Positions 2,526-64,000 of a DNA stretch of 64,000 bases are shown here, piece after piece. The stretch is taken from the NCBI GenBank assembly GCA_003194525.1, contig NBIV01000156.1, forward strand, positions 146,268-210,267, given 5' to 3'. The DNA comes from Gracilariopsis chorda (lineage: Eukaryota > Rhodophyta > Florideophyceae > Gracilariales > Gracilariaceae). The translations under genes and the position numbers were made by a program. Below the pieces are notes generated by a model. That model had not been told where the DNA came from, did not search any database, and worked only from the letters and a program-made list of their open reading frames with translations. Numbering within the stretch: the first letter of the stretch is position 1; each line of letters opens with the position of its first letter.

Positions 2526-2540
2526 ACGTCTCATTCGAAA

Positions 2541-4542: not shown

Positions 4543-4573
4543 ATGTATCATCGTAAAGTACCTGGGAAAGGTT

Positions 4574-6710: not shown

Positions 6711-6784
6711 CTCGTAGAGTACCCCTAAGTTCCAGCGAAAACAGAATATTGCCAGCTATGTGTCATTCTCGCAATGAAGGGTAG

Positions 6785-26583: not shown

Positions 26584-26601
26584 GGTGACAGGCGTGAACA
26601 A

Positions 26602-27326: not shown

Positions 27327-27373
27327 TGTGATTGGTCTCCAGGCCGGACGGTCCGGCCTGGAGACCAATCACA
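27327..27373. repeat. Perfect 47-bp palindrome (23-bp arms, 1-nt centre)
   Basis: The left arm 27327-27349 (TGTGATTGGTCTCCAGG...) is the exact reverse complement of 27351-27373, with G at 27350 as centre. Such a perfect near-spacerless palindrome is expected either from two transposon ends joined head to head or from a very recent fold-back duplication. It stands at the left edge of the transposon-rich tract. Confidence 0.97.
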
Positions 27374-27512
27374 TTCCTTGCAAAGGGTGGCGGAATGGTT
27401 CAGGCCAGCCCTCTTCCTCTGCACGTACAGATCACGATGACGTCAGTGTATCTCAATCTGAGCCCTCAGCGCAAAGCGCTCAGCGGTTTTCTTTACCAAC
27501 GGTACAGGTGAG

Positions 27513-27645
27513 AATTGCAACTAGTGTGGACCACACTATATCTGTATGTCCCATTCTGAGGGAGTTCACAATATATAGTGTAGACCACAGTAATACGGGT
27601 ACCCACACATTCTGGTAACGGGTTTATTAGTGTGGACCATACTAC
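27513..27645. repeat. Repeated AGTGTGGNCCACACT motifs, left cluster
   Basis: One perfect 15-bp palindrome at 27513-27527 and imperfect copies near 27571 (AGTGTAGACCACAGT) and 27631 (AGTGTGGACCATACT). Motifs of the same type recur at 35.65-35.81 kb. About 25 bases just before the first motif also recur inverted on the other side (see the right cluster). They look like subterminal transposase-binding sites. Confidence 0.6.
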
Positions 27646-28159
27646 TCAAGACTCATACAATAAGTGTCGTCATTGACCTGCCCCTTTATGAGCTCCCGCC
27701 TACAACCTGTTCATCAAACTTCTCCCTATACTTGCCTATGATGGCTTGCAGCTCCAGGAACAGTTGTCTTTCTTCCCATTGCGCGTTCATATTCAATGCC
27801 ATCCCACATCTTATAATACCCCTCCGCGCGGAGCTCACACCTTCTTCATGTTATGCACTAGCAAATCTCACTACTTCTTCCGCAAACTTCAAGAAATGGC
27901 GCTTTCTAGAGTTGGTTAGATTTCTTGATCCCCTCGGACCATGTGACCACAAAGTGATCTCTAACAATCCCCTCTTATATTCTTCCTAATGCTTTCTCCA
28001 GAGAGCTTTGAGCTTTTAAACTATTAGGCTGTCAGCAGACTGCACTAAATGCGTCGCGTTACAAAGAACAATTCTGATCTCTATTTTACTCTTTGCAAGT
28101 GCACATTTCATATCGTCCGTAATGTCGTGTCTGTTAACGTTATCAAGATACAATGAAAA

Positions 28160-28174
28160 GCGGCCTTCGGCCGC
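28160..28174. repeat. GC-rich hairpin beyond the Helitron helicase
   Basis: GCGGCC-TTC-GGCCGC, followed by another GC-rich imperfect inverted pair (GGCCTCGCGGCGCGGCC). The position fits a Helitron 3' hairpin on the minus strand, but the terminal tetranucleotide is not recognisable. Confidence 0.45.
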
Positions 28175-28354
28175 AGGCAGGGCCTCGCGGCGCGGCCAAA
28201 AGTTTGCATAAGATATCTGCACAAATTTTGGTTTACGCATAAAATAAAATATGTCAAACTAATGACACCCTTCTAAAAAGTATACAGCTTCTTTTAGATC
28301 ATATTTTTTGATGTTCACCGGCCTTGGATGGAATCACTGCGCATTTTGAGGCGT

Positions 28355-37859: not shown

Positions 37860-38313
37860 AGTTTACCGGTGGGAAACGTCAGCGGCAGCAAAAAGGATAT
37901 TATTTCCTAGTTTGATGGTTTACTCCAACCGGTGGAGATGTCCTAAAAGGTTAATTTCCAGGTACCTTCTATTCTGGATACACGTGGTAGCAACTTCAAT
38001 CAATCTACCCTTGCAGTTTGCAACATGATTGCGACTGTTTAACAATATCCCTAATGCCAGAAGTTTATGATCAGTATACGTCTCACTACATTTGACAGCT
38101 CAGTTGTTCGGCGCAGGAAACCCGATCTCGGATCTGATTAAATAAGGCTCAGCCGGACGCCATCAGCTGAGATTGTATAAAGTTTCAGATTCTTTCAATA
38201 AAAATTGTGGCCACAGTTTGGTGTTCAAATTGGGGAATTATGACAAGCTGACGAAGGCCAAAAACAGGGTTTTGATCGTTAAACCGATCCCTAGCACAAC
38301 TTCATTTACCATG

Positions 38314-41059
38314 CTACAGGGGCTCTGTATCCACTACGCCTAACTTTCTTCTCCTCCCTGTAGTGCGTCCTAGTTGCTCTGCAGATGCCAGTGCCTTCCT
38401 TTTCCTCACGCGTGGAGGAGCAGCCCGAGTTGGTCTCGGGGTATTTTCATGTTCTGGTGGTGTAGTGCTCGATTTGGCAGCAGGTTTCCACTTAGTTTGG
38501 TTTCTGTCGCGTATTTCACTCGCAGCTTGAAATCTGACTTCCATTACAGCAGCTGGGTCGCTTCGTTCTTCGCCTTGCTCAGAAGATGCCCTTCTGCCAT
38601 CCGCACTACTCATGACACGCCTAGTTGCCCCACTACTACTCCCCGTGCGGGAATGTTCCGTACTTCTACGGAAAGGAGTTAGATTCTCCGGAATCATTCT
38701 CAACGAAAGCTCCCTCTGCAAGTGCCTCATACTGCAGCACGTCTTCCGCAAACCTGGGTGTACACGCAAACACAGATTAACCCCGTAGATTGTACAATTG
38801 TACGAAGATCTTTGGCCGCGTTTTGCCCCAGGATTCTGCCCACAGAGAGAACAGTAGAGCGACTTTCCTAGTTGCGAATCGTGCCCTTGAACGAAAAGTA
38901 GCAAAACACGCCCATCTTTGTTGTTGAGAAAAGCAATACGCTTGTTTCTTGCGGTTATGCGCAAGAAGAACCAGACGCCTGAGCTCTTCCTTTGACAGCG
39001 CCGCGGCTTGTGCGCGTGCTTCAACACCTTCAGTCTGACTGGGGTTGTTGCTTCCCCCAGACGCTATTCGTAGTGTCACGGCATGTGTGAGCAGCTCTTG
39101 GGATACATCTAACAAGTACTCGAATGTCCGTTGAACTTTGTTCAACAAATTCCTGTAGCTGTCCAAGGAACCAAAGAAAATAGAAGATTCCAATAGATCC
39201 CGACGCCCATACATCAGCCAGCCTAGAAACGCATTAACGGCTATCATCATGATGATCTGCGAGACGTTCTTCTACTCCCATTAGAAATGGGATGTTGAAG
39301 ATCTCATCACGGCTCGCCACTGTATGGCTCCATGGACACCGGCCTTTGTCTTAGAGCAAAAACTCTGAGAGCCATGTTTGAAAACCTTAAACGGCGGGAA
39401 CACCTTTTGTCTTGACATGCTCATCAATTTTCTGGCAGAATTGCCAACGCTACAAGGGCATATCTTTGCAATGATGCTTGAAATGAGAAGGTAGTTCTGG
39501 CACTCGTTCGTGAGCCCAAGAAACGGCTGGGATGACAAAAGTCATAATGGCATCACGACAGCACTGAAGCACTTCATGACCACCATGTACAGTATTCCCG
39601 TTTCTGCCGCACAAATTTACAACGCCAGGCCAAAGTTTAGTAAAACTAATTGATGAATTACCTGCGTCATGTGCTCCCTCGAGATGTAATTCTGAAATTT
39701 GTCGTCGCCAAACTCGCACTGAATCAACTCAGTTGTTGATAGCATTGTAGCTGCCCCGAGACTGGAAACTGCAACTCGATTTTTGATTTCAACAGCTGCC
39801 AATACAAATGGCTCGTCTCCCACTTCCAAATCTGTACTAAGATCTGCTTCCCAATCTTGAACTTATTCCTTGTGGAGAACTACAACACCATCAGGGGAGC
39901 AAGCCAAGTATTGCCCGTCCTTCAATGCGACCATTCCAATCTAGAAGACCTCTTTGAAAAACTTCTTAGCTGTTAGCGCGCTTAAGAAAGCTTGCTCATT
40001 GATCGTGCCTCTCATCATGCGTTCCGCTGAAACATTTGAGTTGAACCAGCCACTTTACAATAACTCAAACCAGATCGCTACACCTCTTTCCTCGCCAGAA
40101 TTGCCAACCTCCACCCCCAGTATTTATCTTACCTCCACCAGGCTTAATAAGACTTATCCTGCATTGGTTCTGGTGACGCGAAATTGTCGCAGTACGAACC
40201 AGTCAGCGCATCGTTGACCAACTGGGAGGGGTTGGCAATTCACCAGTATCACATTCTGTGCTAGCTCCTTAAATTCCCAGTGGCTGCCCCCCTCTCCTCT
40301 GATTTCGTGAAACAAAGCTTTTGTCAAGTCAACGCTGGGTATGGAAACTGCCAACCAAGTGTTCAAAGTTCCTTGAATACTTTGTGGCACAGTGTATATG
40401 AACCGAAGCACTTGGGAGAGCTTGCCTGTGCAATGCTCCCTAACAGCAACAGCTGCAATCCTGGAATGTCACACACGATGGCTCAATCCAGCGCCCACTG
40501 AATTTGTTGCAACGAAAAAAGCCCGCCCCAAAGATGGTCTCTCGTCAATAACGAACTCTTTCCGGCGGTTGAGGACTTGCTGCATGTCTAGGGCCAGAAC
40601 CGAATCAGCAGCTGTTGCAACACCTGAGGAAAAATTTCTGCCACTTTCACTCATCACACCTCCCACACCTGCGGACTGCACGCTCATCTCGATCTTAGCC
40701 ACCCTTGTCTCTACGCCCGAATGCCCAATGGAATCTCTCACAATTTCTACTGGCGCTTCTCCCTCTCCCTCATTTGCAGCATCTTGCTCGTCACCACGTG
40801 CAGGGTCCATAAATGACGCACCGACGAACGGATGCATCCTTAAAAGGTTGTCAGACTTGACTAACACCGAGCTCAGTCCAAAATCAGAAAGCAACTTCAT
40901 AAAAATATCCTTTCCGTACCCTCTGTCCGCGGTAGCGATGGAAGTGTTCAGAGACTTCTCTTCAGGGCCATCTACCAAAGGATAGAGAAGCTGTCTGACA
41001 GATTGCACATGAGTCTCGCCCGAACGCCTAAATCTTATACCGAATACAACGCGAAACAA
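38314..41059 (-). pseudogene. piggyBac-like transposase relic
   Basis: On minus, in order: 41059-40469 with IATADRGYGKDIFMKLLSDFG (a DDE-transposase Asp region of the piggyBac-like type), 40411-40154 with ADWFVLRQFRVTRTNAG, then short pieces (39829-39617, 39719-39450, 39538-39281, 39250-38777). Last, 39027-38314 has a Cys-rich C-terminal module (SLYCSLCGQ, YNCTIYGVNLCLRVH, KTCC), comparable with the Zn-binding end of piggyBac transposases, followed by a basic Ser/Arg/Pro tail. The order fits piggyBac-derived proteins of protists as I know them. Several frame changes make it a relic. Confidence is moderate because individual motifs are short. Confidence 0.5.
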
Positions 41060-50349: not shown

Positions 50350-50726
50350 TGTGAGGATAAATGTCCTCGCACTATACTTGTCAGATAGTGCGGAAGAGAG
50401 AGATGTTGTGGACCATCTCAGTATCCTTGGGGATGGTGATAAAGCGTTCTGCCTTCTCACTATCCCCGAGGATGGGGTGATGGCTGCTTACATCTTCGGT
50501 TTTTTTTCGCAAACATGTTAGAACTCTAATTACTAAGAGACACGACTAGCGTCTTTCTCGTGAGTATAAAAGGAGAGGAAAGAGCTTGGCCTTCGCCCTT
50601 CGTCTGTTCCCCAACCCGTTTTATCATCATCAACTTTACTTCCTTAAGCAAAGGAACCTTCCTTTCTGGTCCGTCTTTAGCTACCACTACAGACCACCTC
50701 TTTTTTTAACGTATTATTTCACGACA
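50350..50726 (+). repeat. 3' LTR of the Copia element
   Basis: 377 bases, TGTGAGGATAAAT to TTTCACGACA, with the TATA box at 50565-50572. Followed by the TTCTC target duplication. Confidence 0.92.
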
Positions 50727-50731
50727 TTCTC

Positions 50732-51337
50732 TAACCCGCTTTACCACGCTGAATAGCGCCAGCACTGTACTTTCGGTGCACAGCGCAAGCGATAGCATGA
50801 GCGGGGGGGAGGGTTGGGAAAGAAAGAAGAAAGAAGAGGGCGTCAGCGCAGTTCGAGGAAACGGGCAGGCGCCGCCGCTTCGGCAAAGCCACGGCCGCTG
50901 CCGACGACAAGAGCTGCAGTAGTGCGCTCTTAAACCTACAAATGAATTATTTTTCCGCGTTGCTTGAAATCTTATTCTCTGTGCGCACGATTAGTCTCAT
51001 TCTGAATATAAGGATGGACAATTGTACAGTCCGTGAAACCAGAATAAAGCCACCCCCACTTCCACCATTCTTCTTGAACGACTCTTATCTTTTTGTAGCA
51101 CGGCCATTCAGACGGATGAAACTGACGACAGTAACCTATCTTTCAAGCCAGATTACGTTCCAACGCTGTTGGATGCCTCCAATTAACCAATAACAATTCA
51201 TACCTGCGTAATTCAATTAAAGTCCACTTACCTTAATTCCACCTCATTGAAAAGCGCGCGCACTATAAAGTAGTTCAAAACCTGTAACAGCTCCAACTGC
51301 ATCTTCCTCAGTTTCCCGAAGTCCAACAACGGTCAAG
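50732..51337. other. Spacer between Copia element and Tc1 relic
   Basis: About 600 bases; a G-run/purine-rich patch (50797-50840) and no gene. ACTATAAAG near 51261 could be a TATA of the Tc1-type gene. Confidence 0.4.
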
Positions 51338-52256
51338 ATGGGACGCGGTAAGCCTCTGTCTGACCAGGAAAAAGGCATGACTCTTGCAGCTACAGCTCAC
51401 TGTTGCTCGCAGAGAGAAATAGCTCAGACTTAGAATCGCTCCCGCACTGTTGTGCAAAACTTTTTGAAGAATCCCTGCGAGTACTATACTAAGTTTAAAG
51501 GATCTAACAACAAAACACTGACCCCTCATGCAAAAATGGCGTTACTTCGCGCCGCTTCAAACACAACTTCATTCGTGTCGTACAATGAGCGCTACGTTCT
51601 GGTTAGGAGTCGGAATGCACCAAAGTGGTATTGGACTGGCCCTGTTGGCCTTCAGACTGACGACGTGGGTGTTGATAATTTTGTATCTATTCTACTAATT
51701 TTTAGAACTACCTATATAATTTGTATAACTAGATAGATATTTAGAGACGCACGTGGTGCACCTGTACAGGTAGTGGTGCACCAGACGGTAAGTCGTACAC
51801 GTAGCATAGGTCGCGTTGACCTCGCAGCTACACTTAGGCGCTGCCGAGGTCCGCACCCTCAAGGCATTGTAAACTAAGCACCATCTTGGTAAACTCTTGC
51901 CTTTCAGGTCGAGAACTACCAGCTAGTCAGGTTTTGTACGTCTGTTACTGCCGTTGCGCGTCGTTACCAACACGGCCCCGGCTAAGTATCACACCTACTG
52001 TACCACTTGGTATTCAGGTGCTCTATTTCCCTACTGGTTCTTATTTTTATTCTTTCACTTTACAGGTTGAGCTCACCAGAGCTCCCTAGCACAGCCGCTG
52101 TCAGACCCGTTGGTTGTACGAAAATTCGCAAGAGAGCTCTGGAATGCTCTGTCACAACCGCTATCTGTCAGAAGAGTTCAACAGATTTTGAAAGATGCTC
52201 CCATTTTAATTTATAAGAAGATGAAGAAGGTACTAATGATGAAAAACCGCCATTAA
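51338..52256 (+). pseudogene. Tc1/mariner transposase N-terminal part, interrupted
   Basis: From ATG 51338: MGRGKPLSDQEKGMTLAATA, then after a stop NRSRTVVQNFLKNP and LTPHAKMALLRAASNTTS (to about 51580), the paired helix-turn-helix type of Tc1 transposases. About 530 bases later, 52113-52256 continues with VRKFARELWNALSQPLSVRR and QQILKDAPILIYKKMKKV, the second DNA-binding helix bundle. The part between is unrelated and holds GGTGCACC repeats (51755-51782); it may be an insertion or an intron. The catalytic domain is cut off by the Ty3 element at 52318 and should lie beyond the window. Confidence 0.65.
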
Positions 52257-52317
52257 TAAAATAGGGGAAGTTGGGCTCCCCATAAGATGACATTTTCTAT
52301 GGAAGAATAGAAGAAAA

Positions 52318-53142
52318 TGAAGTGCAACGCCCTCAGGGAGGGATTCTTGGTACTTGAACGCTTTCCCGATATTATCGGTTGTGTAGTGTGTATATGAACT
52401 ACGCCCCACTATGGTGGATATGGACACGTGGGACACGGTTTTGGGTCAATTGGCGGTTGGCCACAGTAGTGGATGTTGCCACGAAATGTGGAGTATTTTA
52501 GTTAATATTATTTATTATTTTCACACCCATTTCTGGGAAGCTAGTACTTAGTGCGACGGCGCACTGCCGTCACACCAGTAAACCTTCCCCAACAAGGGAC
52601 CCCAACCTGGGGAATTGGCTCTAGTTGTTGCCGCTTGCGCGCGCACTCTACTCCTCCTTGGAGGGAAACGCCGTAAACCACGGGACATCTAACCCCCTTG
52701 CACATCTAAAGAAGCCCATCCTTGGGAGTACAATTGTTCCAATCATATTGGTGTTTCGCCCTGTATAGGGTTATTGTTACCGGCATCGCCGTATCTGTTC
52801 GTCGCTCTCGCGACTCACATCGTCCTCTCTTCCTCCTCTTCGCCCTTCCTTTTTCCCCTTTTTAGGGTAGCACCTCCCGCTATCCGCGGCCCTCGTGTGC
52901 GCATCCGCTCACACACCCCCACTTACGTGGAAACATACCTCTACTGAGGATCACACCCCGCTCACGCGGATACCGATTCTTCGCCTTCACCTCCCTGCGC
53001 GAGTCGTGACAGGTGTCCCTGGTCTTACAAACCGGCTTCGCCGTGACACCTCTGGGAAGACTCTACCCAACTGGGTTCACCTCGTGAGAGGAAGATCCCG
53101 AACGTCTTTCGGTGTTTTTCCCCTTTGGGGCATTGCACCGCA
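52318..53142 (+). repeat. 5' LTR of the Ty3 element
   Basis: 825 bases, TGAAGTGCAACG to ACCGCA. Matches 63182-64000 base for base except scattered substitutions, short indels and one more divergent patch (near 52771-52800). Rich in hairpins such as GACGGC-GCACT-GCCGTC at 52555-52571 and CCCCA-ACC-TGGGG soon after. Confidence 0.92.
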
Positions 53143-53145
53143 AAG

Positions 53146-53167
53146 TGGTCTCCCGACCTAGAATCGG
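53146..53167 (+). promoter_or_regulatory. Primer-binding site of the Ty3 element
   Basis: TGGTCTCCCGACC followed by TAGAATCGG, three bases after the LTR. The reverse complement has the shape of a tRNA 3' end: T-loop tail CCGATT, T-stem, 7-nt acceptor strand TCGGGAG, discriminator A, CCA. Which tRNA is unknown. Confidence 0.6.
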
Positions 53168-53247
53168 TTTTTGTTTTCCCTCTTACGAGGTTTGTTTTTA
53201 TTTACCGGAAGTTCCGTGATCGTTTCCCGTCGTAACGGTATTTTCTC

Positions 53248-55425
53248 ATGTCGAGAAATCCCTCCGATGCGGAGCCAGTGGTTACGCGTAGTCGCTCCCG
53301 CGACAACGCGGACACTTCCGAAGTTCGGTTCGTACCCCGTATCCCTATACGTACAAGTTCCAGCCGTGCTGGCGCCGCTTCATCGCGGAATGATACCCCC
53401 GAACAGGAACCCCGGAACCTCCTTTTGCCCTCGTTATCAACCCCGCAGGGGAATGCAGCATCGACTCCGGCTGTTGCCGCAGTGCCCCAGGCACCCCGGC
53501 CTGCTCCCGCTGTCGCGGCTTCAAGTCCCCGTGGAACGGGCGATAACACCCCCCAGGGGACTTCCCTGGAATCCCAGGTCCGCGCTCTGTGGACCGCCCA
53601 TGACACCCTTGTAGGGGAACTAAAATCCCTCCAAGAGGTGGTCTCGGCAACCCCCGTAAAGGAGGTCGCCGAGGAACTCCGTATTTTACGGTCTGACGTC
53701 AACTCCGTGTTGGAGAGTTTGGGACAACCCGCCACCTTCATCGAAGGAGTTGAAGCCCGATTTGATCGGATTGGTGCCCGCCTGGAGACGCTGGAGCAGT
53801 TCGTCCTCATGGAAAAACCATCCCCGGATGATCCGGTAAACGAGGTATCGCACAACGACCAGCTTGCTGGGAAGAAGAAACGCCGTCATCGACGGAAACA
53901 CCACCGAAAAGATTCGGACTCCGATTCTTCAACATCGTCGGACTCATTCCGAAACCATTCGGTTAGCTCGAGCTCCTCGGACTCCGACTGGGAGGACGAG
54001 AAGCGAGGCTACTCCTCCCGCTCGAAGCGGTCATCGGCCACTGAAGGTGTGGTCCGAACCCACCAGAAGGGGAGAAGACACCCCGGTCTCCGGGAATTGA
54101 AACCGACAAACCCGGATTACCGGAAGCTTTTATCATACCGGTACTACCGGCTCGAAGACTCGTCACTTGGACGTACGCCCCGTGGTACGGGAAAGGTGCG
54201 AGAATGCATTAAGCGAATGCAGCTCTCGCTCCGCAACTAGTATTTTACTGGAGAGGACCCAGTCCTAGTACTGGATTTCCTATCCCACTTTGTAGCGGAG
54301 GCCGATATCCTCGGTATGAATGAGAGACAAGCCTATTTGTCTTTACCGTATTTCTTACGGGGAGTGGCGGAGGACCAATACACCTCTGTCAGAGGATCTT
54401 CTCGCGCCTCCGAGGGAGGAGTTACTTGCTGGCCGGAGGCTGTGCAGTATCTTCTGCGCTCCTACGCCACCAACACCGCTATTCAGCAGGCTATCCTCGC
54501 TTTGCGATATACACGCCAGCGTGCTGGAGAGACCGAGACCCATTACTCGGTGCGCCTTAACAAGGCTTTCCACAGATGTGGTAACGTATACCCCGCTGGG
54601 GAGCGCAGTACCATGTTCATTGATGGTCTTGACCCGGCAATCTGGAGTTTAGTTACCCGTTATCGGGAGGACAAGCGGAGGATCACCTACCTCGAGCTGG
54701 TCCAACACGCCCGAACGGAAGGGGATGCACTTCGTGCAAGAACTCCGAACAATCGGTCTAAATCCGCCAAGGCGTTGTTGCTGGAAAGCGAAGCTTCCTC
54801 TCTCCCGCTCACCGCGGATGGGAACCCTGGACAGGGATTTGATACCGTGCATTTAGTGCAGGGGGATGGTGTGTCGATACCCACCAGTGATATGCCGTCA
54901 ACGACGGAGATGACCCGTGATACGGGAACGGAAGACCCTGTTTTGTACAGTGGTAACAGTCGGGTTCAACCCCAACGACTCCCGTTTTCAAACGGTCAAT
55001 CCCGTTATCAACGGCCTGGATGGACTGACACCCGCCCTGCGGTTCGCTTCTCCGATACTCGGAATAATAACCCGCGTGTCGCGGTGCTGGCTCTCATTTG
55101 CCACCTGTGCTATGCCCATGGCCATACCTCTCCTCAGTGTATTTGTTCACTGAAGGATATGGCCAAGGTGGTGGCAAATTATGAGGCCCTCACTCCAGAG
55201 GAGAAACGTTCCGTCCGACGGCTTCCTACCTCCGTGCTAAAACGGACTTTTCCCACGCCCTACCACAGACCCCGCGTGCGCGGCAAGCTTCATACACCCC
55301 AAATCGGGAGATCACGCAACCATCCGTTGCAACCCCCGCTTATGCGGATAGAAACCCCCGTCAACGGGATGAAGCACTCGTTGTCGAGGAAACCAACCCA
55401 CCGCCGAAGGCGGAAAACTAACTGA
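53248..55425 (+). pseudogene. Ty3 gag with one in-frame TAG
   Basis: Single frame from 53248 to 55425 broken once by TAG at 54238-54240. N-part: Pro/Ser/Arg-rich (residues 1-120), a helical segment (LRSDVNSVLESL) and a Ser/Asp/Arg-rich linker. After the stop comes the capsid (VLDFLSHFVAEADILGMNER, TETHYSVRLNKAFHRC, MFIDGLDPAIW) and a zinc knuckle C-x2-C-x4-H-x4-C at 55099-55140. Gag packages the RNA in the cytoplasmic particle. Past the knuckle a different frame (to about 55422) looks more protein-like than the annotated one, so a small indel near 55.2 kb is likely. Whether the TAG is read through or is a lesion cannot be told from one copy. Confidence 0.8.
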
Positions 55426-55438
55426 GGGAGTCTCCCCT

Positions 55439-55963
55439 TTGGGAGAGGCGTCCTCAAGAACGAGGCTGTTGGCGCCAGAGGCGTCCTCGCCTCGCTCCCC
55501 GGTGAAAGTCCTCTCGAGGAAAGACACCGCTGACGCGGACTCTGCGCACCTCGGTGTGTTGCGTCGCCCGTGGATACGGAGTAAAAATCCCCGGACTCCC
55601 GGTAGAGTCTTGGTCTTGGCCAAGCGCAATTATAAGGTCTATGCCGACCTTGGCCTTGACCCCCAGTTTATGGTGAGGTTTCTCACCGTCCTGGATACAG
55701 GTGCAGGCCCCAACTTTGTTGTGGAATCATTGTTACCCCCGCTTGTGCGGTCGCGTATCCGCTCTGACGCGGTCCCCGACATTTCGGATGCGAACAACAA
55801 TCCGTTACAAACGGTGGGTACAGTGGACCTCGTCGTGAGACTTGGTACCTCTGTGGTGAAGTTGGACTTCATCGTTTGCCGTTCATTGGCAGCACCAGTC
55901 ATACTGGGATGTGATTACTGCGACAGATTTGTAGACGCAATCAGGCCCGCCTCAGGCGTGTAG
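55439..55963 (+). CDS. Ty3 protease segment
   Basis: Open from about 55373. The retropepsin active site TVLDTGAGPNF falls at residues 83-93 of the 55439 frame, and the flap/ILGCDYCDRF region at the end. The frame is offset from gag, so expression would need a ribosomal frameshift near the gag end (GGAAAAC just before a stop in one frame is a candidate) or repair of an indel. It stops at TAG 55961-55963, while the pol frame overlapping it (RRVELDDG before VPIVRRP) reads as the natural continuation, so another one-base shift separates protease from RT. Confidence 0.8.
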   Translation: MGEASSRTRLLAPEASSPRSPVKVLSRKDTADADSAHLGVLRRPWIRSKNPRTPGRVLVLAKRNYKVYADLGLDPQFMVRFLTVLDTGAGPNFVVESLLPPLVRSRIRSDAVPDISDANNNPLQTVGTVDLVVRLGTSVVKLDFIVCRSLAAPVILGCDYCDRFVDAIRPASGV

Positions 55964-55980
55964 AACTTGACGACGGATGG

Positions 55981-58900
55981 TTGGTTCCGATTGTTCGCCG
56001 CCCGCTAAAGCGGTCCTCTCGGAAACAAGTTCCGCTCCCTGCTGTGCAGGAACCACCGCCCGCGTCCCGCGAGTCCACCAAGCTCCGCGTCGCTGCCTCG
56101 GTTTCTATACCGGCTGAGTCCCAAGTCTGGGTGCAGGTAAATTCCCGTCAACACGGTCTTCGGGTTATACAACCCCTCGCCTCGTTGTACGAGAAATCCC
56201 AGCTGGCGCTGGCTTATGAAATTGTCTCCATTTCCCCGGATGTCCCTTTCCGGATATTGGTTGCCAACCTTGGCAAACACCCCCAGCATCTGGTCAAACA
56301 CCAAGTAATTGGGAGTGTAACCCCCCATCCTATGGGAATGCTGCCAACGAAGATGACAGCCGCCGATGTACTCGGAGTTACCACCTCTTCTGAGGAGTTC
56401 ACCCCGCCGTCCGAAGACGTCAAGTCTAAGGAGGGGGAGGAAACCGCTACTTCAGCGTCGAACATACCGAGTAACTCGGAATTGCGAACCACACCTGTTC
56501 CACAGGACAATGCTCCATCGAGCAATGACCGGATTGATCCGGAAAAAGCACTTGAAGCGCTGGACTTCAGCCACGTGCCAGAGTCGCACCGCGACAAACT
56601 CCGTACTATGTTACGGGAATTCACCACAATGTGGGATGGCTCCCCTAGCGAGATTAATGCAACGGAACACCGGATCGATTTAATCCCCGGTGCGCGACCG
56701 GTTGCACAACCCCCTTACAGGGCAGGTCCGAAAGCTCGGGAAGAGGAGCAGTCCCAGGTGGACAAGATGCTCCGCGCAGGTGTGATTGAGCCCGCTCAAT
56801 CGCCCTGGGCATCCCCAGTTGTACTGGCTTTAAAGGCTGACGGAACCTGGAGGTTCTGTGTCGACTACCGCCGGCTCAATGCCGTGACTGTTAGGGACAC
56901 GTACCCCATCCCTCGTATGGACGAGTGCATTGACTCCCTTGGAGACGCCACCGTGTTCACGGCCCTTGATGCCAATTTGGGATATTGGCAAGTACCTGTC
57001 AGACAGGAGGATCGCGACAAAACCGCATTCACCTGCCATGCAGGAACTTACCGCTTCATGCGGATGCCATTTGGGTTAACCAACGCCCCCGCCACCTTTC
57101 AGCGTGCAGTACATATTCTACTCAACCGCTTTAAGTGGCGGAGCTCTCTGGTCTACCTTGATGATATTATCATCTTCTCCAACTCGTTGGACGACCATCT
57201 CACTCACGTCCGAGACGTGCTGACCGTACTCCGCGATGCGGGAACTACCCTCAAGTTGAGGAAATGCGAGTTTTTCACGGATACTGTGAAGTATCTGGGT
57301 CACAATATCCGTCTTGGACGGTTAGCGATCGAGAAAGCTCGAGTCAAATCCCTCGTTGAGGCGAAAGAACCACGTACTCAAACGGAACTGCGCTCCTTTT
57401 TGGGGCTGTTCAACGTCTATCGACGGTTTATCCCGAACTTTTCGGATACTGCGGTGCCCCTAAACGCGTTGTTGCGAAAGGGGAACCCCCCAAAACTGGG
57501 AACATTTACGCCCGAGCAATCGGAAGCCTTCAACTCCTTAAAGGAGGCTGTCATATCAGCACCAATCCTACATCTCCCAAAATTTGGGTTGCCATACTCC
57601 GTAGATACGGACTCAAGCGACTACCAAGTCGGGTGTGCTCTTTTTCAAACCACCCCCGAGGGGGAACGACATCCAATTGGTTATTGGTCGCACTCGCTCA
57701 ATGTTCATGAGCGGAACTACTCCGTATCGGAGAAAGAGTGCCTCGCCGTCGTATGGGCGATGACCACTCTGCGCCCCTACCTTATGGGAATTAACTTCAC
57801 CGTGTACACGGATCATTCCTCATTGAGGTGGTTGATGAATATCTCCGACCCGTCGGGACGCCTCATGCGCTGGAGACTCCGCCTCGCGGAATATGACTTT
57901 CAAGTCATTTATAAAAAGGGTGCGCAGAACACCCAGGCCGACGCTTTGTCGCGGTTACCCACAAGTGGGGAAGCACTCCCAACGGAGGATGATGAAGTCC
58001 CATGTTTCATGGCTATAGACCCGGATGATCCGGAATATGCCGTCGAGGCTAGGCCAGAAAACTGGGACGAGGATGCTGATTTTGACGAACTACTAGCATC
58101 GCGAGATAAATCTGAGAACCCGTTACCGGGAAACTTTGTACCGGTATCACCGGAAAAAATGATCCGAGAACAATTCGGCGACCGATTCTGTACGAGGATT
58201 CGTGCCCGTATCAACGGTGGTGAAGATCTCCCTTTCGGGGTAAACGACAAAGGCTACCTCGTAAGGAAGGTGGAAGCCCGCCTACAGATTGTGGTACCAC
58301 ATTCCCTGCAATCGCGGGTGTTACATCTATCACACTACGCCCCCATTGGAGGTCACCCAGGTGGGAGGAAACTCTACCTAACCCTGCGAAGGGATTTCTA
58401 TTTGCCCGCAATGGCGGTGGATTGCTACGCAACTGTGCGGTTTTGTAGCGAATGCGCGAAGAATCGCGTCAAACTCCGCAAAAATGCGAAGAAGATGAAA
58501 CTATTCCCCGCAAGGGCGCCACTCGAGTTTATCGCAATTGATCTTCTCGGACCACTACTCACCACAAAACGTGGAAAAAAGTTTCTACTTGTCATCACCG
58601 ACCGCTTTTCTAAGCTGGTACGGACTGTCCCCCTTCGGAGGATAACCGCTCTCACGGTGGCCCAGGCTCTGGTGACGCACTGGATTTTTGTCTACGGTCC
58701 CCCTGTGGAGGTGCTCTCCGACAACGGGAAGCAGTTCGTGAGCAAGTTCTTCCAGGATGTTTGTCGCATCCTGGATGTCAAGAACTTGTTCACGACTACC
58801 TACCACCCCCAGTGTAATGGGCAAGTTGAACGGTTTAACCGGACGTTACTCGCGGCGTTACGTTCTTACGTCGCTGACCACCCAACGAATTGGGATCTCT

Positions 58901-59220
58901 ACGCTGATGCGGTAACCTACGCGTACAATACGCAGGTACACCGGACTACCGGAGTTTCGCCATTCGAGTTGGTTCTATCTAGAACACCCCCGCCTGTGGC
59001 GCTGGAACCCCAAGCTACCTTGGACAATTTCCCATCTGTGGGTATCTACCGGCAGCAATGGAAGCAATGGCTTTCCAAGCTGGTCCCCGCTGCGCGGAAG
59101 TCTATGGCACGGGCCCAAGCCGCTTACAAGCGGGATTTTGACGCTCGCTTGCGAGGGAAACCGTCCCCGATTCGGGCAAATAACTACGTCTTCATCAGGA
59201 AGGAGTACTACAACCCGTAG
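55981..59220 (+). CDS. Ty3 pol: reverse transcriptase, RNase H, integrase
   Basis: 1079 codons; the frame is open further upstream and the first codon here is TTG, so this is a polyprotein segment with no own start. RT: FCVDYRRLNAVT, ALDANLGYWQVPV, MPFGLTNAPATFQ, catalytic YLDDIIIFS at residues 392-400. RNase H: VDTDSSDYQVG (about 541), EKECLAVVWA, YTDHSSLRWL. Integrase: HHCC zinc finger (LSHYAPIGGH...CSECAKN), then D854, D914 and E950 (exact D-35-E spacing). All catalytic residues I can check are present. It ends in TAG at 59218-59220, after which the same frame goes on into the integrase tail. Confidence 0.95.
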   Translation: MVPIVRRPLKRSSRKQVPLPAVQEPPPASRESTKLRVAASVSIPAESQVWVQVNSRQHGLRVIQPLASLYEKSQLALAYEIVSISPDVPFRILVANLGKHPQHLVKHQVIGSVTPHPMGMLPTKMTAADVLGVTTSSEEFTPPSEDVKSKEGEETATSASNIPSNSELRTTPVPQDNAPSSNDRIDPEKALEALDFSHVPESHRDKLRTMLREFTTMWDGSPSEINATEHRIDLIPGARPVAQPPYRAGPKAREEEQSQVDKMLRAGVIEPAQSPWASPVVLALKADGTWRFCVDYRRLNAVTVRDTYPIPRMDECIDSLGDATVFTALDANLGYWQVPVRQEDRDKTAFTCHAGTYRFMRMPFGLTNAPATFQRAVHILLNRFKWRSSLVYLDDIIIFSNSLDDHLTHVRDVLTVLRDAGTTLKLRKCEFFTDTVKYLGHNIRLGRLAIEKARVKSLVEAKEPRTQTELRSFLGLFNVYRRFIPNFSDTAVPLNALLRKGNPPKLGTFTPEQSEAFNSLKEAVISAPILHLPKFGLPYSVDTDSSDYQVGCALFQTTPEGERHPIGYWSHSLNVHERNYSVSEKECLAVVWAMTTLRPYLMGINFTVYTDHSSLRWLMNISDPSGRLMRWRLRLAEYDFQVIYKKGAQNTQADALSRLPTSGEALPTEDDEVPCFMAIDPDDPEYAVEARPENWDEDADFDELLASRDKSENPLPGNFVPVSPEKMIREQFGDRFCTRIRARINGGEDLPFGVNDKGYLVRKVEARLQIVVPHSLQSRVLHLSHYAPIGGHPGGRKLYLTLRRDFYLPAMAVDCYATVRFCSECAKNRVKLRKNAKKMKLFPARAPLEFIAIDLLGPLLTTKRGKKFLLVITDRFSKLVRTVPLRRITALTVAQALVTHWIFVYGPPVEVLSDNGKQFVSKFFQDVCRILDVKNLFTTTYHPQCNGQVERFNRTLLAALRSYVADHPTNWDLYADAVTYAYNTQVHRTTGVSPFELVLSRTPPPVALEPQATLDNFPSVGIYRQQWKQWLSKLVPAARKSMARAQAAYKRDFDARLRGKPSPIRANNYVFIRKEYYNP

Positions 59221-61146
59221 CGGGAGAAGCGTCACAAACTCTCGCCTGTGGCGGATGGACCCTTCAAGGTCATCTCTGTTAACACCGACACTGTCGTGGT
59301 AGAGATGGGCGACACGCACGAACGGATTTCCCGTGATCATGTTGTCCTTGCCCCTCCTCCCTCGTCAGAGGTAGTCCTGGATCCAGGCAACCCCGTTTCT
59401 ACGGAGTCTGCAACACCGGAATCATCCGGTAGTACTAGGCCTACGGTACTACCACACCCCAGCCGGGGACTCTCAGACCTACCGACTCTGTCGGACACAC
59501 CGGCTCAGCCGGGTAATTCGGGCCCCTCAGCGCCCGCCCCTACCACGTCTGCCCCACTGGTGCGCATCTATACCCGCCAGGCGGGGAATGTTATCCCTTA
59601 TCCTGCCGCTCCGTCTAAGGAGGGGGAGGAGAACACTCGTTTTCGAGGAACGATATCGCCGTCGCAACGGGAAACACACCGTAACATACGGAACACTGAC
59701 CGTGGAGCACGGAGTATGTCACGCGAAACTAATCCCCCGTTCCCGGGCAGTGCTGTGCAACAGGAACCAGACGCGCAGGCCCCGCAAAAGCGGCAAATAC
59801 ACCGTTTGTCACGGGAAAACGAGAAGCCTCACTCCAATACCGCAGCAGCGGAAATGCAATCGCCCGATCCATCCCCGGAGGCATCGCCACAAACGCAGAA
59901 AATATACCGTGCTGCACGGGAAGTTGAAGCGCAACTACCGCACACCCCTGTCAGGGAAGGATCCCCGATAAGGGAGTATGGTGACGATTGCCCGCGATCC
60001 CCTGAGCAGGGCGATGCCTCCAAGCCGCCGTTGGCGGAAGTCCCCGCGGAAGCGGTTCAATCAGGTCGATCAGACCCGCGCCCTGCGGAGAAGAGGGGCC
60101 CAGATACACCAGCGCCGCTGGGAAATCCCCACACCCAACCTGGGGAAAAAGGCAGCCAAGCCGCAGTCGAAGCTTTAAGCCCTGGCTCGCAAGCACCGGA
60201 AACGCCTCCCGTCGTTGACGGAATCGAAGCCCCCGCTACGGGGAATAATTTGCGCCAACCCCTGCAACGCTGCGGCGAAGAACCGAAGAACTCGGGAAAA
60301 ACGCGCGCCATCGCACGCTCGAAACCGGTCGTATCGGACGCTGCTCCTCCTCATGGAGATGGTGCACCGCGCTTAGCGGCAATTCCCCTGAAAAGGGTGT
60401 CATCGGCACCTGCCCGGCACCCCCCAAAGGGGAATTTTGACCAAAATACCGGTGTACCGGAGTTAGCCCCAGGCAACCCGTCAGTAGCCGGGGACACCAC
60501 GGCATCGCCGGAACGTATGGTGCAGAGCGCTCGTGCGCCTGGCAGGGAGGCGGTTTGCCACCCAATCACCGTGTCGCACGGGACCCCCCAGGGGATTGTG
60601 GAAATGCCGATCCCGCAGGAGCAGTCATCTTCCCGCAAACTCGCGGTTCGTGAGCTCAACCGCGAAGGCGGAGCCCAAGTCCCCCGCCGACTGGTGGTTC
60701 GCCCGCAATACCGCGAAAGCGGAAATGAACCTGCCCCAATGGGGAATGACTTGCCGGTGAAAACGGTGGCACCACACACCCTCTTGAGGGATATCTTCCT
60801 GCATGAGCAGCGGCCGCTATCACAGCGCACGGCAACGTCGGAGTTATCGCCGAACACCCTGCTAAGGGACATTATACCGCACAGTGGGCAGCCCCCGCAG
60901 GGAAGTACAACCACCACCCGGCACGGCCGGCAGGTCTACGAACGAGAGTTCGTAGTAGACCGACTTGTCGGACACACCTGGGACCAGGATGGTATTCTAC
61001 AATACCGCGTCCGCTGGTACGGGTACGACCCCAGTGGGGATACGTGGGAGCCAATTGAACACCTCCCACGGTCGCAGGTCCTGCGATACCACCGTCAAAC
61101 GGGAACTGCAGCCCCAGCCACGCTGGTTAATGCCCAAGTTGGGTAA
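59221..61146 (+). CDS. Ty3 integrase C-tail, repetitive linker and chromodomain
   Basis: Same frame as pol, separated only by the TAG. Begins with the integrase GPF/Y-like module (HKLSPVADGPFKVISVNTDT), then about 530 residues of Pro/Ser/Arg-rich, hydrophilic linker with recurring short units (KIYRAAREVE, QIHRLSRENE, HTLLRDI twice), and ends in a chromodomain (about 60934-61104: DRLVGHTWDQDGILQYRVRW, DTWEPIEHL). Chromodomains steer integration to modified histones. The linker is far longer than in common chromoviruses and its DNA is a chain of mini-hairpins, so its peptide repeats may be a by-product of DNA-level pattern. Confidence 0.85.
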   Translation, partial: REKRHKLSPVADGPFKVISVNTDTVVVEMGDTHERISRDHVVLAPPPSSEVVLDPGNPVSTESATPESSGSTRPTVLPHPSRGLSDLPTLSDTPAQPGNSGPSAPAPTTSAPLVRIYTRQAGNVIPYPAAPSKEGEENTRFRGTISPSQRETHRNIRNTDRGARSMSRETNPPFPGSAVQQEPDAQAPQKRQIHRLSRENEKPHSNTAAAEMQSPDPSPEASPQTQKIYRAAREVEAQLPHTPVREGSPIREYGDDCPRSPEQGDASKPPLAEVPAEAVQSGRSDPRPAEKRGPDTPAPLGNPHTQPGEKGSQAAVEALSPGSQAPETPPVVDGIEAPATGNNLRQPLQRCGEEPKNSGKTRAIARSKPVVSDAAPPHGDGAPRLAAIPLKRVSSAPARHPPKGNFDQNTGVPELAPGNPSVAGDTTASPERMVQSARAPGREAVCHPITVSHGTPQGIVEMPIPQEQSSSRKLAVRELNREGGAQVPRRLVVRPQYRESGNEPAPMGNDLPVKTVAPHTLLRDIFLHEQRPLSQRTATSELSPNTLLRDIIPHSGQPPQGSTTTTRHGRQVYEREFVVDRLVGHTWDQDGILQYRVRWYGYDPSGDTWEPIEHLPRSQVLRYHRQTGTAAPATLVNAQVG

Positions 61147-61337
61147 CGTTGCCGCGCGAGCGGAGAGCGAAAGGAAAGGATAACAAGGCAAGGTCCGTCG
61201 AAGACGGGGAACTCAACCGAGAAGCACCGTTCTAAACGGGAAAGTTTATTCAAGGGAGCAGCTAGCTCCCCACAATACTACACTACACTAACTGGCATAG
61301 CCAGGGAAAGAAGAACCAGGAAACTGGACTAGAGGTT

Positions 61338-63017
61338 TCACTCACCCCCATCGTCCGGGGCGTAACCCCCAGCAAGGCGGTAGGCCAACGCGTCCGCCAT
61401 GGTGGTGACATCCCCCGATACCTCGGCAGCGCTAAGACCGGCACCCCGGAGGAAACGTGCGATGATTTCGTTTTCATTCGCCGTCACCCCGCTGGGGATA
61501 GAAGGTCCGGCACTTGCCGCCGAAGGGTCAGCAGCCGGCTCGGCCGGAGATACCCCCTCTAGGAAAGCTTCCGCGCTAGCGCCGGTTTCCTCTACGTCCA
61601 TCTCCCCGGGTTCTTCCGGTTCGTTATCGACCATTGGGTCATCCCCGCCGTATGCGCGGTAGTAGTCGTCAGAATCGACGTACCCCACCGAGTGGTCTTC
61701 CGGCACATGCCGGGGCGTATCGCGAAGCTCGCGCGCCTCCTCGGAGGAAATTTCCCGGAACTCCCAGGGGTCGAAGTAGATAAAATCCCCCGCAAGGGCG
61801 GTGTTTCTACCGAGTCCCGGACCACCGGTGTTACCGCTGCCGCCATCCAGACGACCGCTTTGCTCCAGCGGGACCTCACTCCAGCTAACGCTGTCGATGT
61901 ACCCAAGTAATTGGAGGACCTCTTCATTGTTGGCCTGGCCCCCAAGGGGGATGCGAAGATCCAGGTTTCGGATCGCTGCCCGCACACGCGGTTGAAGGAA
62001 CCAGAGACGATACTGGTCGTACGCCTCGTTGAGGATATAAGCCGCACTGCGGGCCGCCCACTCCGTAACCACTACGGACCACAAACCCCGACCGGGGATC
62101 CTGCATGAGCAGCGAACCGAGGTACGTAAGTACCGGCGGGAGTTCTATGTAGCACCCCCGGCAGGCTTCATGGAAGCGCCACCACTCGGGGAGTGCTACA
62201 TACCGACCTAGTCGGTGAGGCGGCGCAATCCGCTCTATCTCCACGTTCTGATACGGGATAAAATACCCGAATCGGGATCGCCAACGCCGCTCGTAGCGGA
62301 TGAAGTTTTGGAGAAAGTTGGACCGGTATTGCCGGGGAAGGTACCTGAACTCCGCCCGAATAATCGGTCGCTCCCAGCAAAGGGCTTCTTGCCGCGCTGC
62401 GGGGAAATTCCTCCAAGCGAGGGTCTCGAGGCGGAACAGGTTCTCGCCGTACCCAATCTCCCCGCGAGTGCGGAAGTAGCTAACGTCGAAGCCAAACTCC
62501 GGTGGGACCGGTACATCGAATGGAGCCCGGCTCTGCCGTTGATACGCCATGCGCGTCAACGCGGTCTGTGCGCAGCGACGGTCTCGCCCGAATTTCTTCG
62601 GAGGTGGTGACGCGGAATCGCAATCCGGTGACGCCAATCCCACGACGTGGTGACTGCTCTGGCAGATCCCCCGGAAGGGTGTCTGAGCCATCCGCATAAG
62701 CGGTGACCAATCCCTCATTGAGGACAGCGACCGGGTGGAAACCACGGGGCAAGGCGCAGGCGCGACGCGTGATTCCGATTCATCGGGTTGAGCCCCACCA
62801 GGGTGTTGTAGGTTGGCCAGTTGGACACCGGAGTGGTTCCGGAGGACACCACCGAAGGTGGTAGTGCGAAGGGATGGTCGGCAGCAGCAGCCATATTCCC
62901 CGGTTGTACCGGATGTCGATCGCCCTGAGGCAGGGGAACTGACCGGAAACCGGTGGTGTATCGCCCGAGAAGTCTCGGAGGTTGGCTGTGGTTGTTGATG
63001 TTGTTGTCGTCGTTCAT
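61338..63017 (-). pseudogene. Antisense gene in the Ty3 element (frameshifted)
   Basis: Between the chromodomain ORF and the 3' LTR, on the opposite strand. Protein-like sequence runs from MNDDNNINNHSQPPRLLG (63017) through three or four frames: HPVAVLNEGLVTAYADGS (frame of 62752-62480), then VPPEFGFDVSYFRTRGEIGY, RRWRSRFGYFIPYQNVEIER and EWWRFHEACRGCYIE (frame ending 61924). It finishes with SVVVTEWAARSAAYILNEAY to an acidic tail (62084-61338, ending APDDGGE). Pieced together it would be roughly 550-590 residues. No known domain. Antisense ORFs in this position are known from a few plant Ty3/Gypsy families. The number of breaks suggests it is no longer needed in this copy. Confidence 0.6.
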
Positions 63018-63167
63018 TTTTCCCTTTTGGAGGGTGGCTGTTGTTGTTGTTTGTGCGCTCGATGACTCTGGTGCAGAGGGATTTACCGGAGAACCAGAGA
63101 CAGAGCACGCGCTTTTATCACCCAATTTCGTCTGGGAATCCTCCGCGTCCGCGGTCGTTTTCCCGTC

Positions 63168-63181
63168 TTAGGGGGAGGATA
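63168..63181 (+). promoter_or_regulatory. Polypurine tract of the Ty3 element
   Basis: AGGGGGAGGATA-type purine run directly before the 3' LTR start at 63182. Confidence 0.65.
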
Positions 63182-64000
63182 TGAAGTGCAACGCCCTCAG
63201 GGAGGGATTCTAGGTACTTGAACGTTTCCCGATATTATCGGTTGTGTAGTGCGTGTATGAACTACGCCCCACAATGGTGGGTATGGACACGTGGGAAACG
63301 GTTTTTGGGTCAATTGGCGGTTGGCCACAGTAGTAGATGTTGCCACGAAATGTGGAGTATTTTAGTTAATATATTTATTATTTTCACACCCATTTCTGGG
63401 AAGCTAGTACTTAGTGCGACGGCGCACTGCCGTCACACCAGTAAACCTTCCCCAACAAGGGACCCCAACCTGGGGAATTGGCTCTAGTTGTTGCCGCTTG
63501 CGCGCGTACTCTACTCCTCCTTGGAGGGAAACGCCGATAAACCACGGGACATCTAACCCCCTTGCACATCTAAAAGAAGCCCATCCTTGGGAGTATAATT
63601 GTTCCAATCATTGGTGTTTCGCCCTGTATAGGGAGTCCTGTCCATCCGCATTGCGGTATCTGCCCGTCGCTCTCGCGACTCACACTTCGTCCTCTCTTCC
63701 TCCTCTTCGCCCTTCCTTTTCCCCTTTTTAGGGTAGCACCTCCCGCTATCCGCGGCCCTCGTGTGCGCATCCGCTCACACACCCCACTTACGTGGAAACA
63801 TACCTCTACTGAGGATCACACCCCGCTCACGCGGATACCGATTCTTCGCCTTCACCTCCCTGCGCGAGTCGCGACAGGTGTCCCTGGTCTTACAAACCGG
63901 CTTCGCCGTGACACCTCTGGGAGGGCTCTACCCAACTGGGTTCACCTCGTGAGAGAAGATCCCGGAACGTCTTTCGGTGTTTTTCCCTTTGGGGCATTGC
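63182..64000 (+). repeat. 3' LTR of the Ty3 element (truncated by the window)
   Basis: 819 bases matching 52318-53136; the final bases (ACCGCA in the 5' copy) lie just outside. Confidence 0.93.

Follow-up and report, generated by a model that had tools for sequence, protein, structure and literature searches.

A dense array of short hairpins with a CC...GG foot along a Ty3/Gypsy element of the red alga Gracilariopsis chorda

Introduction

How far structure beyond short terminal signals organises the genomes of long terminal repeat (LTR) retrotransposons is, to our knowledge, an open question. Here, we describe a Ty3/Gypsy LTR element at the end of a 64,000-nucleotide stretch of DNA from the red alga Gracilariopsis chorda (GenBank contig NBIV01000156.1, positions 146,268–210,267; the whole stretch is called the window below). 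The element is filled with very short hairpins from LTR to LTR.

Some RNA viruses possess a genome-scale ordered RNA structure that is pervasive and defined by folding energy. Correction of quasi-palindromes by template switching turns imperfect inverted repeats into perfect ones and predicts clustered changes in one arm. Among LTR elements, the nearest counterpart known to us is the palindromes of Sireviruses.

Sireviruses are Copia elements whose RM boxes comprise 13 listed short palindromes, all but one with a CGG-CCG core; each listed RM is one consensus per element, present in 8–32 copies of 66.5–100% identity, and RMs occupy the LTR, the linker, and the beginning of env (PMC2829016, in the available part of the article). 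In Ty3, Gag/nucleocapsid packages the RNA, and cis-acting signals were delimited at both RNA ends; the available part of that account calls the structure of Ty3 RNA uncharacterised and mentions no whole-length hairpin array (PMC4974528). Dispersed packaging signals have been described in MS2, satellite tobacco necrosis virus, parechovirus, and hepatitis B virus (HBV), where the recognition motif lies mainly in the loop, for example xxYA with a bulged A in MS2 and RGAG in HBV (PMC6281560, from part of the text).

Results

Hairpin content of the element

We defined a core hairpin as a stem of at least 4 base pairs (bp) with a loop of 3–5 nucleotides (nt), or a stem of at least 5 bp with a loop of 1–2 nt; this definition was set after viewing a stem-by-loop table, so that core counts are not blind. 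The element holds 434 core hairpins (37.1/kb), whereas the rest of the window holds 685 (13.1/kb). Counting stems of 4 bp or more with loops of 3–6 nt gives 41.5/kb and 16.2/kb, respectively. Core hairpins cover 42.8% of the element compared with 13.9±1.2% in 20 dinucleotide shuffles, and in 250-base bins the rise begins with the start of the 5′ LTR. Codon-preserving shuffles (100 each) were exceeded in six of six frames (z 4.7–13.6): the pol frame contains 121 hairpins versus 42.4±5.8 in shuffles, and z was 8.5 and 7.5 for the gag pieces, 8.5 for the tail, and 4.7 and 6.2 for two antisense frames.

A first-pass annotation of the window, made from the letters alone, had described the element as saturated with tiny perfect hairpins. 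All nine hairpins that it quoted lie where it placed them, and its count for positions 56001–56400 (about 16 hairpins, 7 of them with at least 5 bp) compares with our 19 of at least 4 bp and 7 of at least 5 bp. The excess over dinucleotide- and codon-preserving shuffles is thus real and stronger than had been claimed. The annotation had named the Copia stretch of the window as a comparison; there, the density is that of dinucleotide shuffles (63 hairpins versus 59.8±7.9, z 0.4). Six further stretches gave z values of 0.7–2.8 against such shuffles, highest at 20001–30000 (2.8) and 50501–52317 (2.6), so that a slight excess exists outside the element, too.

The excess is carried to a large extent by hairpins whose two outermost base pairs, the foot, read CC...GG (CC-hairpins). 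The element contains 228 of these, compared with 14.6±3.9 in 300 shuffles, 14.6±4.1 in 200 second-order Markov sequences, and 14 in the other 52.3 kb of the window. Control hairpins with a GG...CC foot number 21 in the element and 21 in the rest (shuffles 14.8±3.9). Outside the 3′ LTR, 205 of 211 CC-hairpins are distinct in sequence, and the array is thus not a single repeated motif. The CC foot was chosen after a map of hairpin classes had been drawn; it was then applied to a second family (family C, below) that had played no part in defining it.

The array extends over all parts of the element.

52318–64000, + strand: Ty3/Gypsy LTR element with the hairpin array; reverse transcriptase (RT), RNase H, integrase, and chromodomain (Pfam)
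52318–53130, + strand: 5′ LTR, ends approximate; direct repeat of the element's 3′ end; 33 core hairpins, 19 CC-hairpins
53236–55425, + strand: gag region, from open reading frames (ORFs); 44 CC-hairpins; frame interrupted in the window copy by an in-frame stop at 54238–54240
55373–59220, + strand: protease-like region and pol (RT, RNase H, integrase), split over two frames in the window copy, from ORFs and Pfam; 53 CC-hairpins within 55915–59220
55373–55963, + strand: presumed protease-like part, named for its DTGAGP motif; no Pfam match
59221–61146, + strand: proline-rich tail and chromodomain, from ORFs and Pfam; 45 CC-hairpins
61338–63114, − strand: region with two overlapping antisense frames (61338–62144 and 61924–63114), from ORFs; 34 CC-hairpins
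63181–64000, + strand: 3′ LTR, direct repeat, reaching the end of the window and the contig; 29 core hairpins

As the first-pass annotation had stated, the pattern extends across LTRs, sense and antisense genes, and non-coding sequence, and it acts on nucleic acid, not on protein.

Foot, size, and pairing rule of the hairpins

The excess lies chiefly at spans of 11–14 nt (mostly 12–13) with 4–5 pairs. Loops are mostly 3–4 nt long and share no common sequence. By class (bp, loop), CC feet were observed/expected at 47/1.0 for (5,3), 68/3.0 for (4,4), 27/3.6 for (4,3), 23/0.9 for (5,2), and 14/0.3 for (6,1). In these five classes GG and GC feet show no excess (GG 0/0.7 for (5,3) and 4/3.2 for (4,4)), save GC (5,3) with 3 versus 0.5. 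In nine pooled classes, CC feet reach 228/15.1, CG 37/12.8, and CT 26/5.3. Two hairpins may serve as examples.

56324–56336, + strand: CC-hairpin CCCAT-CCT-ATGGG, of the class with 5 bp and a 3-nt loop
56162–56175, + strand: core hairpin GGGTT-ATAC-AACCC, which lacks the C anchor

Pairing within the stems is strictly Watson–Crick. Perfect hairpins are observed/expected at 385/58.5 (6.6-fold), whereas stems with one internal mismatch stay at chance, be it G-U (52/56.7, 0.92-fold), A-C (64/64.9, 0.99-fold), or any other (241/247.3, 0.97-fold). Family C behaves likewise, with 140/23.9 for perfect stems, 28/24.6 for G-U, 24/24.5 for A-C, and 103/97.8 for other mismatches. Within the energy range in which Watson–Crick stems are enriched ∼5-fold (9–12-fold with an outer C), 34 G-U stems were observed versus 33.8 expected. 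Likewise, G-U stems matched to the enriched perfect stems in Turner or DNA energy show no excess, with small numbers per bin. CC...GG and GG...CC stems share identical stacking terms. Because CC...GG is enriched and GG...CC is not, stability is not the selected quantity, and the G-U/G-T and GG-foot controls rule out thermodynamic stability of RNA or DNA alike. Of the beaded RNA fold that the first-pass annotation had offered as a cause, the selected beaded arrangement fits, and the RNA fold as such does not, given that G-U and GG...CC stems occur near chance. That annotation had not noticed the CC...GG anchor, the narrow limit on size, the exclusively Watson–Crick pairing, or the ∼20-nt spacing described next.

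Orientation and spacing

CC...GG reads identically on both strands, so that the foot is uninformative about the strand, and only the flanks can inform. On the + strand, the base 3′ of the CC-hairpin is A in 114 of 228 cases, and the base 5′ of it is T in 32 of 228. The antisense region keeps the same direction (3′ A in 16 of 34, 5′ T in 6 of 34), and in family C the counts are 38 and 16 of 116. Short spacers of 5–12 nt (n = 102) are A-rich on the + strand (A 0.35, T 0.24), compared with 0.23 for both bases in long spacers.

Neighbouring hairpins tend to be spaced by ∼20 nt. In 282 C-anchored hairpins without mutual overlap, the pair correlation between starts is 2.0 at 21 nt and 0.26 at 30 nt, and further out it is 1.26 at 42 nt, 0.62 at 48 nt, and 1.41 at 63 nt. 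The periodicity score of 0.215 lies above the 99.8% point (0.143) of hairpins of the same size placed at random. The spacing between nearest neighbours is thus certain, whereas any higher order is marginal. Empty positions of the ∼20-nt spacing (n = 80) hold partial C...G hairpins in 39% of cases versus 17% in shuffles and 13% off-register. The ∼20-nt spacing is also seen in a diverged subfamily (subfamily B, below).

Selection across genomic copies

We aligned 20 copies (L017–L036) to the window in 500-bp blocks, dropping alignments of fewer than 430 bases, blocks of fewer than 5 sequences, and sites covered by fewer than 8 copies; the variant tables by stem, loop, and spacer include one mosaic copy (L025). 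Variants shared between copies occupy 72 of 3237 stem positions (2.2%), 73 of 1088 loop positions (6.7%), and 349 of 5598 spacer positions (6.2%; Fisher p = 2.5e-15). Singletons are spread evenly, with 361/3237 (11.2%), 126/1088 (11.6%), and 606/5598 (10.8%), respectively. Calling hairpins in the window copy itself builds in some lowering of stem variation. Inverted repeats with loops of 8–14 nt outside the core stems, which served as control for this bias, carry shared variants at 51 of 1101 positions (4.6%); part of the fall from 6.3% is therefore due to calling, and the remainder, down to 2.2%, is not.

Gain and loss of hairpins were scored on real pairs of copies differing at one base within 41 nt, excluding the mosaic copy; 238 shared and 583 single variants fell outside this scoring. 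Shared variants destroyed hairpins in 21 of 144 cases, compared with 26.4 and 23.5% for random changes (two shared classes), whereas private variants did so in 128 of 442 (29.0%; random 29.7%; shared versus private p = 4e-4). Hairpins were created by 14 of 144 shared variants (random 6.7 and 6.0%) and 24 of 442 private ones (5.4%; random 5.3%). Shared variants avoid stems ∼3-fold and private ones do not, which is the pattern predicted for hairpins that are selected while the element is active and then decay neutrally; in active lineages the stems evolved under purifying selection, and in late, private variants they did not. In pol, stems take up 17.4% of the bases in invariant codons versus 18.6–24.4% elsewhere; being nearly as frequent there, they probably leave much of the load to synonymous choice.

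The copies also differ by region. Among blocks with at least six near-full copies, the LTR blocks 52318–52817 and 63318–63817 stand furthest from the window copy, with a median identity of 93.5 and 88.6%, and most internal blocks are 96–98% identical to it. The mosaic copy L025 is mostly near the window copy, but its integrase segment (element ∼5740–7020) is only 76% identical and belongs to a subfamily, of which 40 listed copies are 99–100% identical to L025 there. It is therefore likely that subfamilies have recombined and that a burst of copying took place very recently.

Related families and turnover of hairpins

Over a 1.3-kb piece of the integrase region, subfamily B (L037–L042) is 76% identical to the window copy. 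In this piece, one of its members (L042) has 35 core hairpins compared with the window's 42, of which 10 have common centres and 5 more lie within 3 nt. Family C (L043 and L048; G000:C84:1400-5832) stems from the same genome and shows 70–73% DNA identity in long aligned pieces. It contains 69 + 84 = 153 core hairpins, where ∼26 each (∼52) are expected. The first-pass annotation had named an excess confined to one family as a supporting result; this holds within the window, but family C shares the excess. Its feet, observed/expected, are CC 37/3.2, TC 23/4.5, CT 14/2.8, and CG 18/4.3, with GG 5/3.8 and GC 2/2.1 as controls. The excess in family C is thus spread more evenly over CC, TC, CT, and CG feet than in the family of the window, as might be expected of a reader with broader specificity.

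At hairpins that the other family lacks, the two arms have changed to a similar extent, with 134 changes in 5′ arms and 154 in 3′ arms. Covariation of the arms, which the first-pass annotation had named as a supporting result, is weak: 7 of 1741 stem pairs occur in two Watson–Crick states, two of these being shared and one having a G-T intermediate in three copies, and 54 are broken in at least two copies. One of the hairpins with a shared swap, here of the outer pair, is the following.

58707–58719, + strand: hairpin with shared outer-pair swap; G-C in 6 copies, A-T in 11, and the intermediate G-T in 3 (window included)

Ordinary substitutions thus seem to create and abolish the hairpins, whose density is kept and whose positions mostly are not.

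One further locus, L044, is a decayed copy of the window's own family and was rejected as a separate family. No relatives were found in viral contigs. Three distant Gypsy-like pol pieces (L045, L046, and L047) lie in contigs filed as bacterial metagenome-assembled genomes, perhaps as eukaryotic contamination; their CC-hairpins show no excess (observed/expected 3/3.7, 6/5.7, and 7/4.4), and L045 has 152 core hairpins versus 126±10.

Architecture of the element and its surroundings

Apart from the array, the element is an ordinary Ty3/Gypsy element. Its LTRs of ∼0.8 kb are evident from five repeat pieces in 52362–53129 that recur at 63225–63994 with 93–99% identity. The Pfam domains of pol follow the Ty3/Gypsy order RT, RNase H, integrase, and the C-terminal chromodomain (PF00385, E = 2.4e-10) places the element with the chromoviruses by domain content. 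Searching the genome assembly (91 Mb, 1081 contigs) gave at least 71 pol matches. The window copy is broken; an open pol frame of 1875 amino acids exists in other copies, and in copy L029 the gag frame (728 amino acids) is open as well. An Agarophyton protein shares 65% identity with the element's pol across 69% of its length. In L029, gag (988–3174) overlaps pol (3126–8753) by 49 nt in a different frame, both being open, which suggests frameshifting.

Of the 20 copies, 11 carry the first 0.7 kb of the antisense region in full, 2 have a shortened form of it, and 7 lack it; in copies without the antisense part, the tail is closely joined to the stretch preceding the 3′ LTR. Neither antisense frame has a Pfam match, and the longer one also lacks a match in the Protein Data Bank (PDB). 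With 34 CC-hairpins in 1.8 kb, the density of the region equals that of the rest of the element. If captured from elsewhere, it has acquired the hairpin array.

Elsewhere in the window, the hairpin-richest 2-kb bin (38001–40000) holds 45 hairpins of 4 bp or more, 21 of them with 5 bp or more, and no CC-hairpin. A frame at 1411–2010 resembles a putative integrase fragment of another element, and the adjacent kilobases each hold at most one CC-hairpin. The named relatives of a host gene at 24745–26604 (− strand) include proteins of Gracilaria domingensis (51%), Agarophyton chilense (55 and 47%), and Chondrus crispus (47%); together with the Agarophyton match of pol, they agree with a gracilarialean red alga as host.

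Discussion

A putative array of protein-binding sites

We tentatively read the hairpins as a selected, dispersed array of putative binding sites that the element's own Gag would recognise on a single-stranded intermediate, a reading that we consider possible but short of probable. Two foot base pairs and the adjacent A are constrained, and the loop and inner pairs are free, which suggests that a protein may read the foot of the hairpin. The flank preferences run in one direction along the element whatever the coding strand, as would be expected if the array were read on a single-stranded replication intermediate, be it genomic RNA or minus-strand cDNA. The likeliest reader would be Gag, with its capsid-like core, CCHC knuckle, and basic, serine-rich tract. 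Gag might coat the genome as beads, one unit per ∼20 nt, and such beads could serve to condense or package it and to keep hold of it while it is reverse-transcribed. Taken further, the whole element may be written on a ∼20-nt quasi-lattice, many positions of which are taken by strictly Watson–Crick CC...GG micro-hairpins. This would be a new type of cis organisation along a whole genome, selected on single-stranded intermediates, perhaps of both strands, because it scaffolds a nucleoprotein filament that serves packaging and reverse transcription, with proteins, LTRs, and antisense region evolved around it; we regard this wider picture as conceivable and somewhat doubtful.

Features of Gag are consistent with such a role. 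The Gag of L029 has the CCHC pattern, as do 29 of its 42 listed relatives, and in 15 aligned Gag sequences the capsid-like helices are preceded by a tract rich in arginine and serine and by a conserved stretch of basic residues. For a structural model of the L029 Gag, Foldseek gave Arc, PNMA2, and retroviral (HIV) capsid domains as nearest structures. The protein has no match to a Pfam gag domain. Capsid and nucleocapsid features of the kind found in Metaviridae are thus predicted for Gag, with weak Foldseek E-values.

Several points weigh against Gag as reader of the array. Coat proteins normally accept G-U pairs in the RNA hairpins that they recognise, yet such pairs stand at chance in both the element and family C; the strict Watson–Crick rule is the chief feature that a reading by Gag leaves unexplained. 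The identity of the reader we infer from sequence features. The Gag model has a mean predicted local distance difference test (pLDDT) score of 57, and its best PDB match has an E-value of 0.0045, with none reaching 0.001. Folding probability is nearly equal on the two strands (0.405 for + and 0.381 for −) and is uninformative for assigning the strand, and real spacers do not favour hairpins over shuffled spacers (0.397 and 0.369). A control with permuted gaps has a mean of 0.166 and a 95% point of 0.208, which the periodicity score barely exceeds. Coherence of the spacing fades by ∼200 nt with none beyond, so that a global lattice was rejected, and family C lacks the 20.5-nt period at short range (0.08 in both pieces; noise ∼0.1). 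Compared with subfamily B, stem bases are no better conserved than the rest (0.769 versus 0.761). In yeast Ty3, nt 429–4979 are dispensable for transposition when the proteins are supplied in trans (PMC4974528, in the available part), and sites along the whole length are therefore no general need of such elements.

Alternative explanations

Strict pairing would be explained if genomic RNA and minus-strand cDNA both had to fold, and we therefore rank this alternative first, although it is unlikely. RT would pause at RNA hairpins, RNase H would cut the copied RNA, folding would part the freed strands, and second-strand synthesis would stay unblocked, with ∼20 nt as the ruler of the reverse-transcription complex. 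A G-U pair on one strand is A-C on the other, and both are unenriched (0.92- and 0.99-fold versus 6.6-fold for perfect stems); the missing G-U/G-T stems are left unexplained by RNA or DNA energies, and presence along the whole length, LTRs included, fits as well. However, the CC...GG anchor finds no explanation in this way, and the one-sided 3′ A is not predicted. The polymerase and RNase H sites of Ty3 RT lie ∼13 bp apart rather than 20 (PMC5371799, from part of the text), and the RT–RNase H distance was rejected as the ruler of the spacing.

A host or element protein other than Gag, such as an RNA- or single-stranded-DNA-binding protein, a modification enzyme, or an export factor, might read the hairpins instead. 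The evidence for reading of the foot leaves the identity of the reader free. One site per 20–50 nt would be more than a localisation or export signal needs, however, and CC-hairpins show no enrichment elsewhere in the window; we deem such a reader rather unlikely.

The first-pass annotation had also considered a mutational origin, in which template switching during reverse transcription perfects near-palindromes; mismatch correction in cDNA hairpins would have the same effect, and neither is supported. Such a process accounts for Watson–Crick strictness, constant correction would also conserve stems in active lineages, and shared variants do gain hairpins somewhat more often than random changes, which selection could bring about, too. 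However, changes occur in both arms: of 83 hairpins with at least two changes, 15 have all of them in one arm, compared with 23.1 expected. Symmetric correction should leave ∼6% of stem pairs in two Watson–Crick states (estimated from the spacer rate), where 7 of 1741 were observed, and 54 pairs stay broken in at least two copies. Moreover, private variants gain hairpins at the random rate, and neither the specificity for the CC foot nor the spacing is predicted. This origin is therefore very improbable.

Protection from RNA interference, likewise raised by the first-pass annotation, would require that small interfering RNAs (siRNAs) derived from the element be made less effective by self-folding. 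It would act on both strands and all regions, and the spacing is close to siRNA length. Nevertheless, 29.5% of 21-nt windows hold a whole hairpin, as do 29.4% after random placement (10.2% in shuffled sequence); long gaps are not avoided (25 gaps of more than 50 nt versus 27 expected), and the CC...GG foot is unexplained, so that we give this proposal little credence.

Finally, the element's G+C content is above that of its surroundings, yet an artefact of composition or coding has a negligible chance of being the cause, since dinucleotide, codon, and second-order Markov controls (the last covering trinucleotides) and the near-chance GG-foot hairpins contradict it.

Comparison with known systems

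No report of such an array was found in the open-access literature as covered by titles and the openings of abstracts, the subscription literature being mostly outside this search, and we provisionally regard the array as a categorically new feature. Its signal is dense enough to be read from sequence: the motif is sharp, hairpin size is limited, neighbours are spaced, and a signature of selection sets shared variants apart from private ones. Questions on dispersed sites that are usually left to virus cryo-electron microscopy, here the reading by Gag, the strand, and the footprint, become testable with short oligonucleotides, and the same traits offer a sequence fingerprint for other retroelements and for retroviruses.

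Like genome-scale ordered RNA structure, the array pervades the whole genome of the element, but energy is not its criterion: an excess of folding energy that includes G-U pairs was not found when tested on the hairpin stems. Unlike palindromes made by template switching, it has no excess of one-arm clustering. Sirevirus RMs resemble it as short palindromes in an LTR retrotransposon, as far as the available part of their description goes. However, the array belongs to a Gypsy element, as pol order and chromodomain contradict the Copia superfamily; it has a CC...GG foot and nearly all-distinct hairpins, fills the coding regions, and contains no near-identical LTR palindrome. With Ty3 the element shares the superfamily and a Gag with one CCHC knuckle; in the available account of Ty3 the signals lie at the RNA ends, whereas the array runs the whole length.

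The closest functional parallel may be the packaging signals of RNA viruses, which, in the part of the account available, are many dispersed stem–loops of varied sequence with a shared recognition feature and a spacing that matters. Many varied, dispersed hairpins under selection are found here as well, and the CC...GG foot with its 3′ A is an observed shared feature that Gag may read. Here, in contrast, the loops are free, the stem foot is fixed, G-U is unused, and hundreds of sites lie ∼20 nt apart in an LTR retrotransposon. A whole-length, spaced, foot-anchored, and purely Watson–Crick array is lacking in the accounts of packaging signals and of Sireviruses, in the parts available. If Gag does read the hairpins, the array would work similarly to the dispersed packaging signals of RNA viruses.

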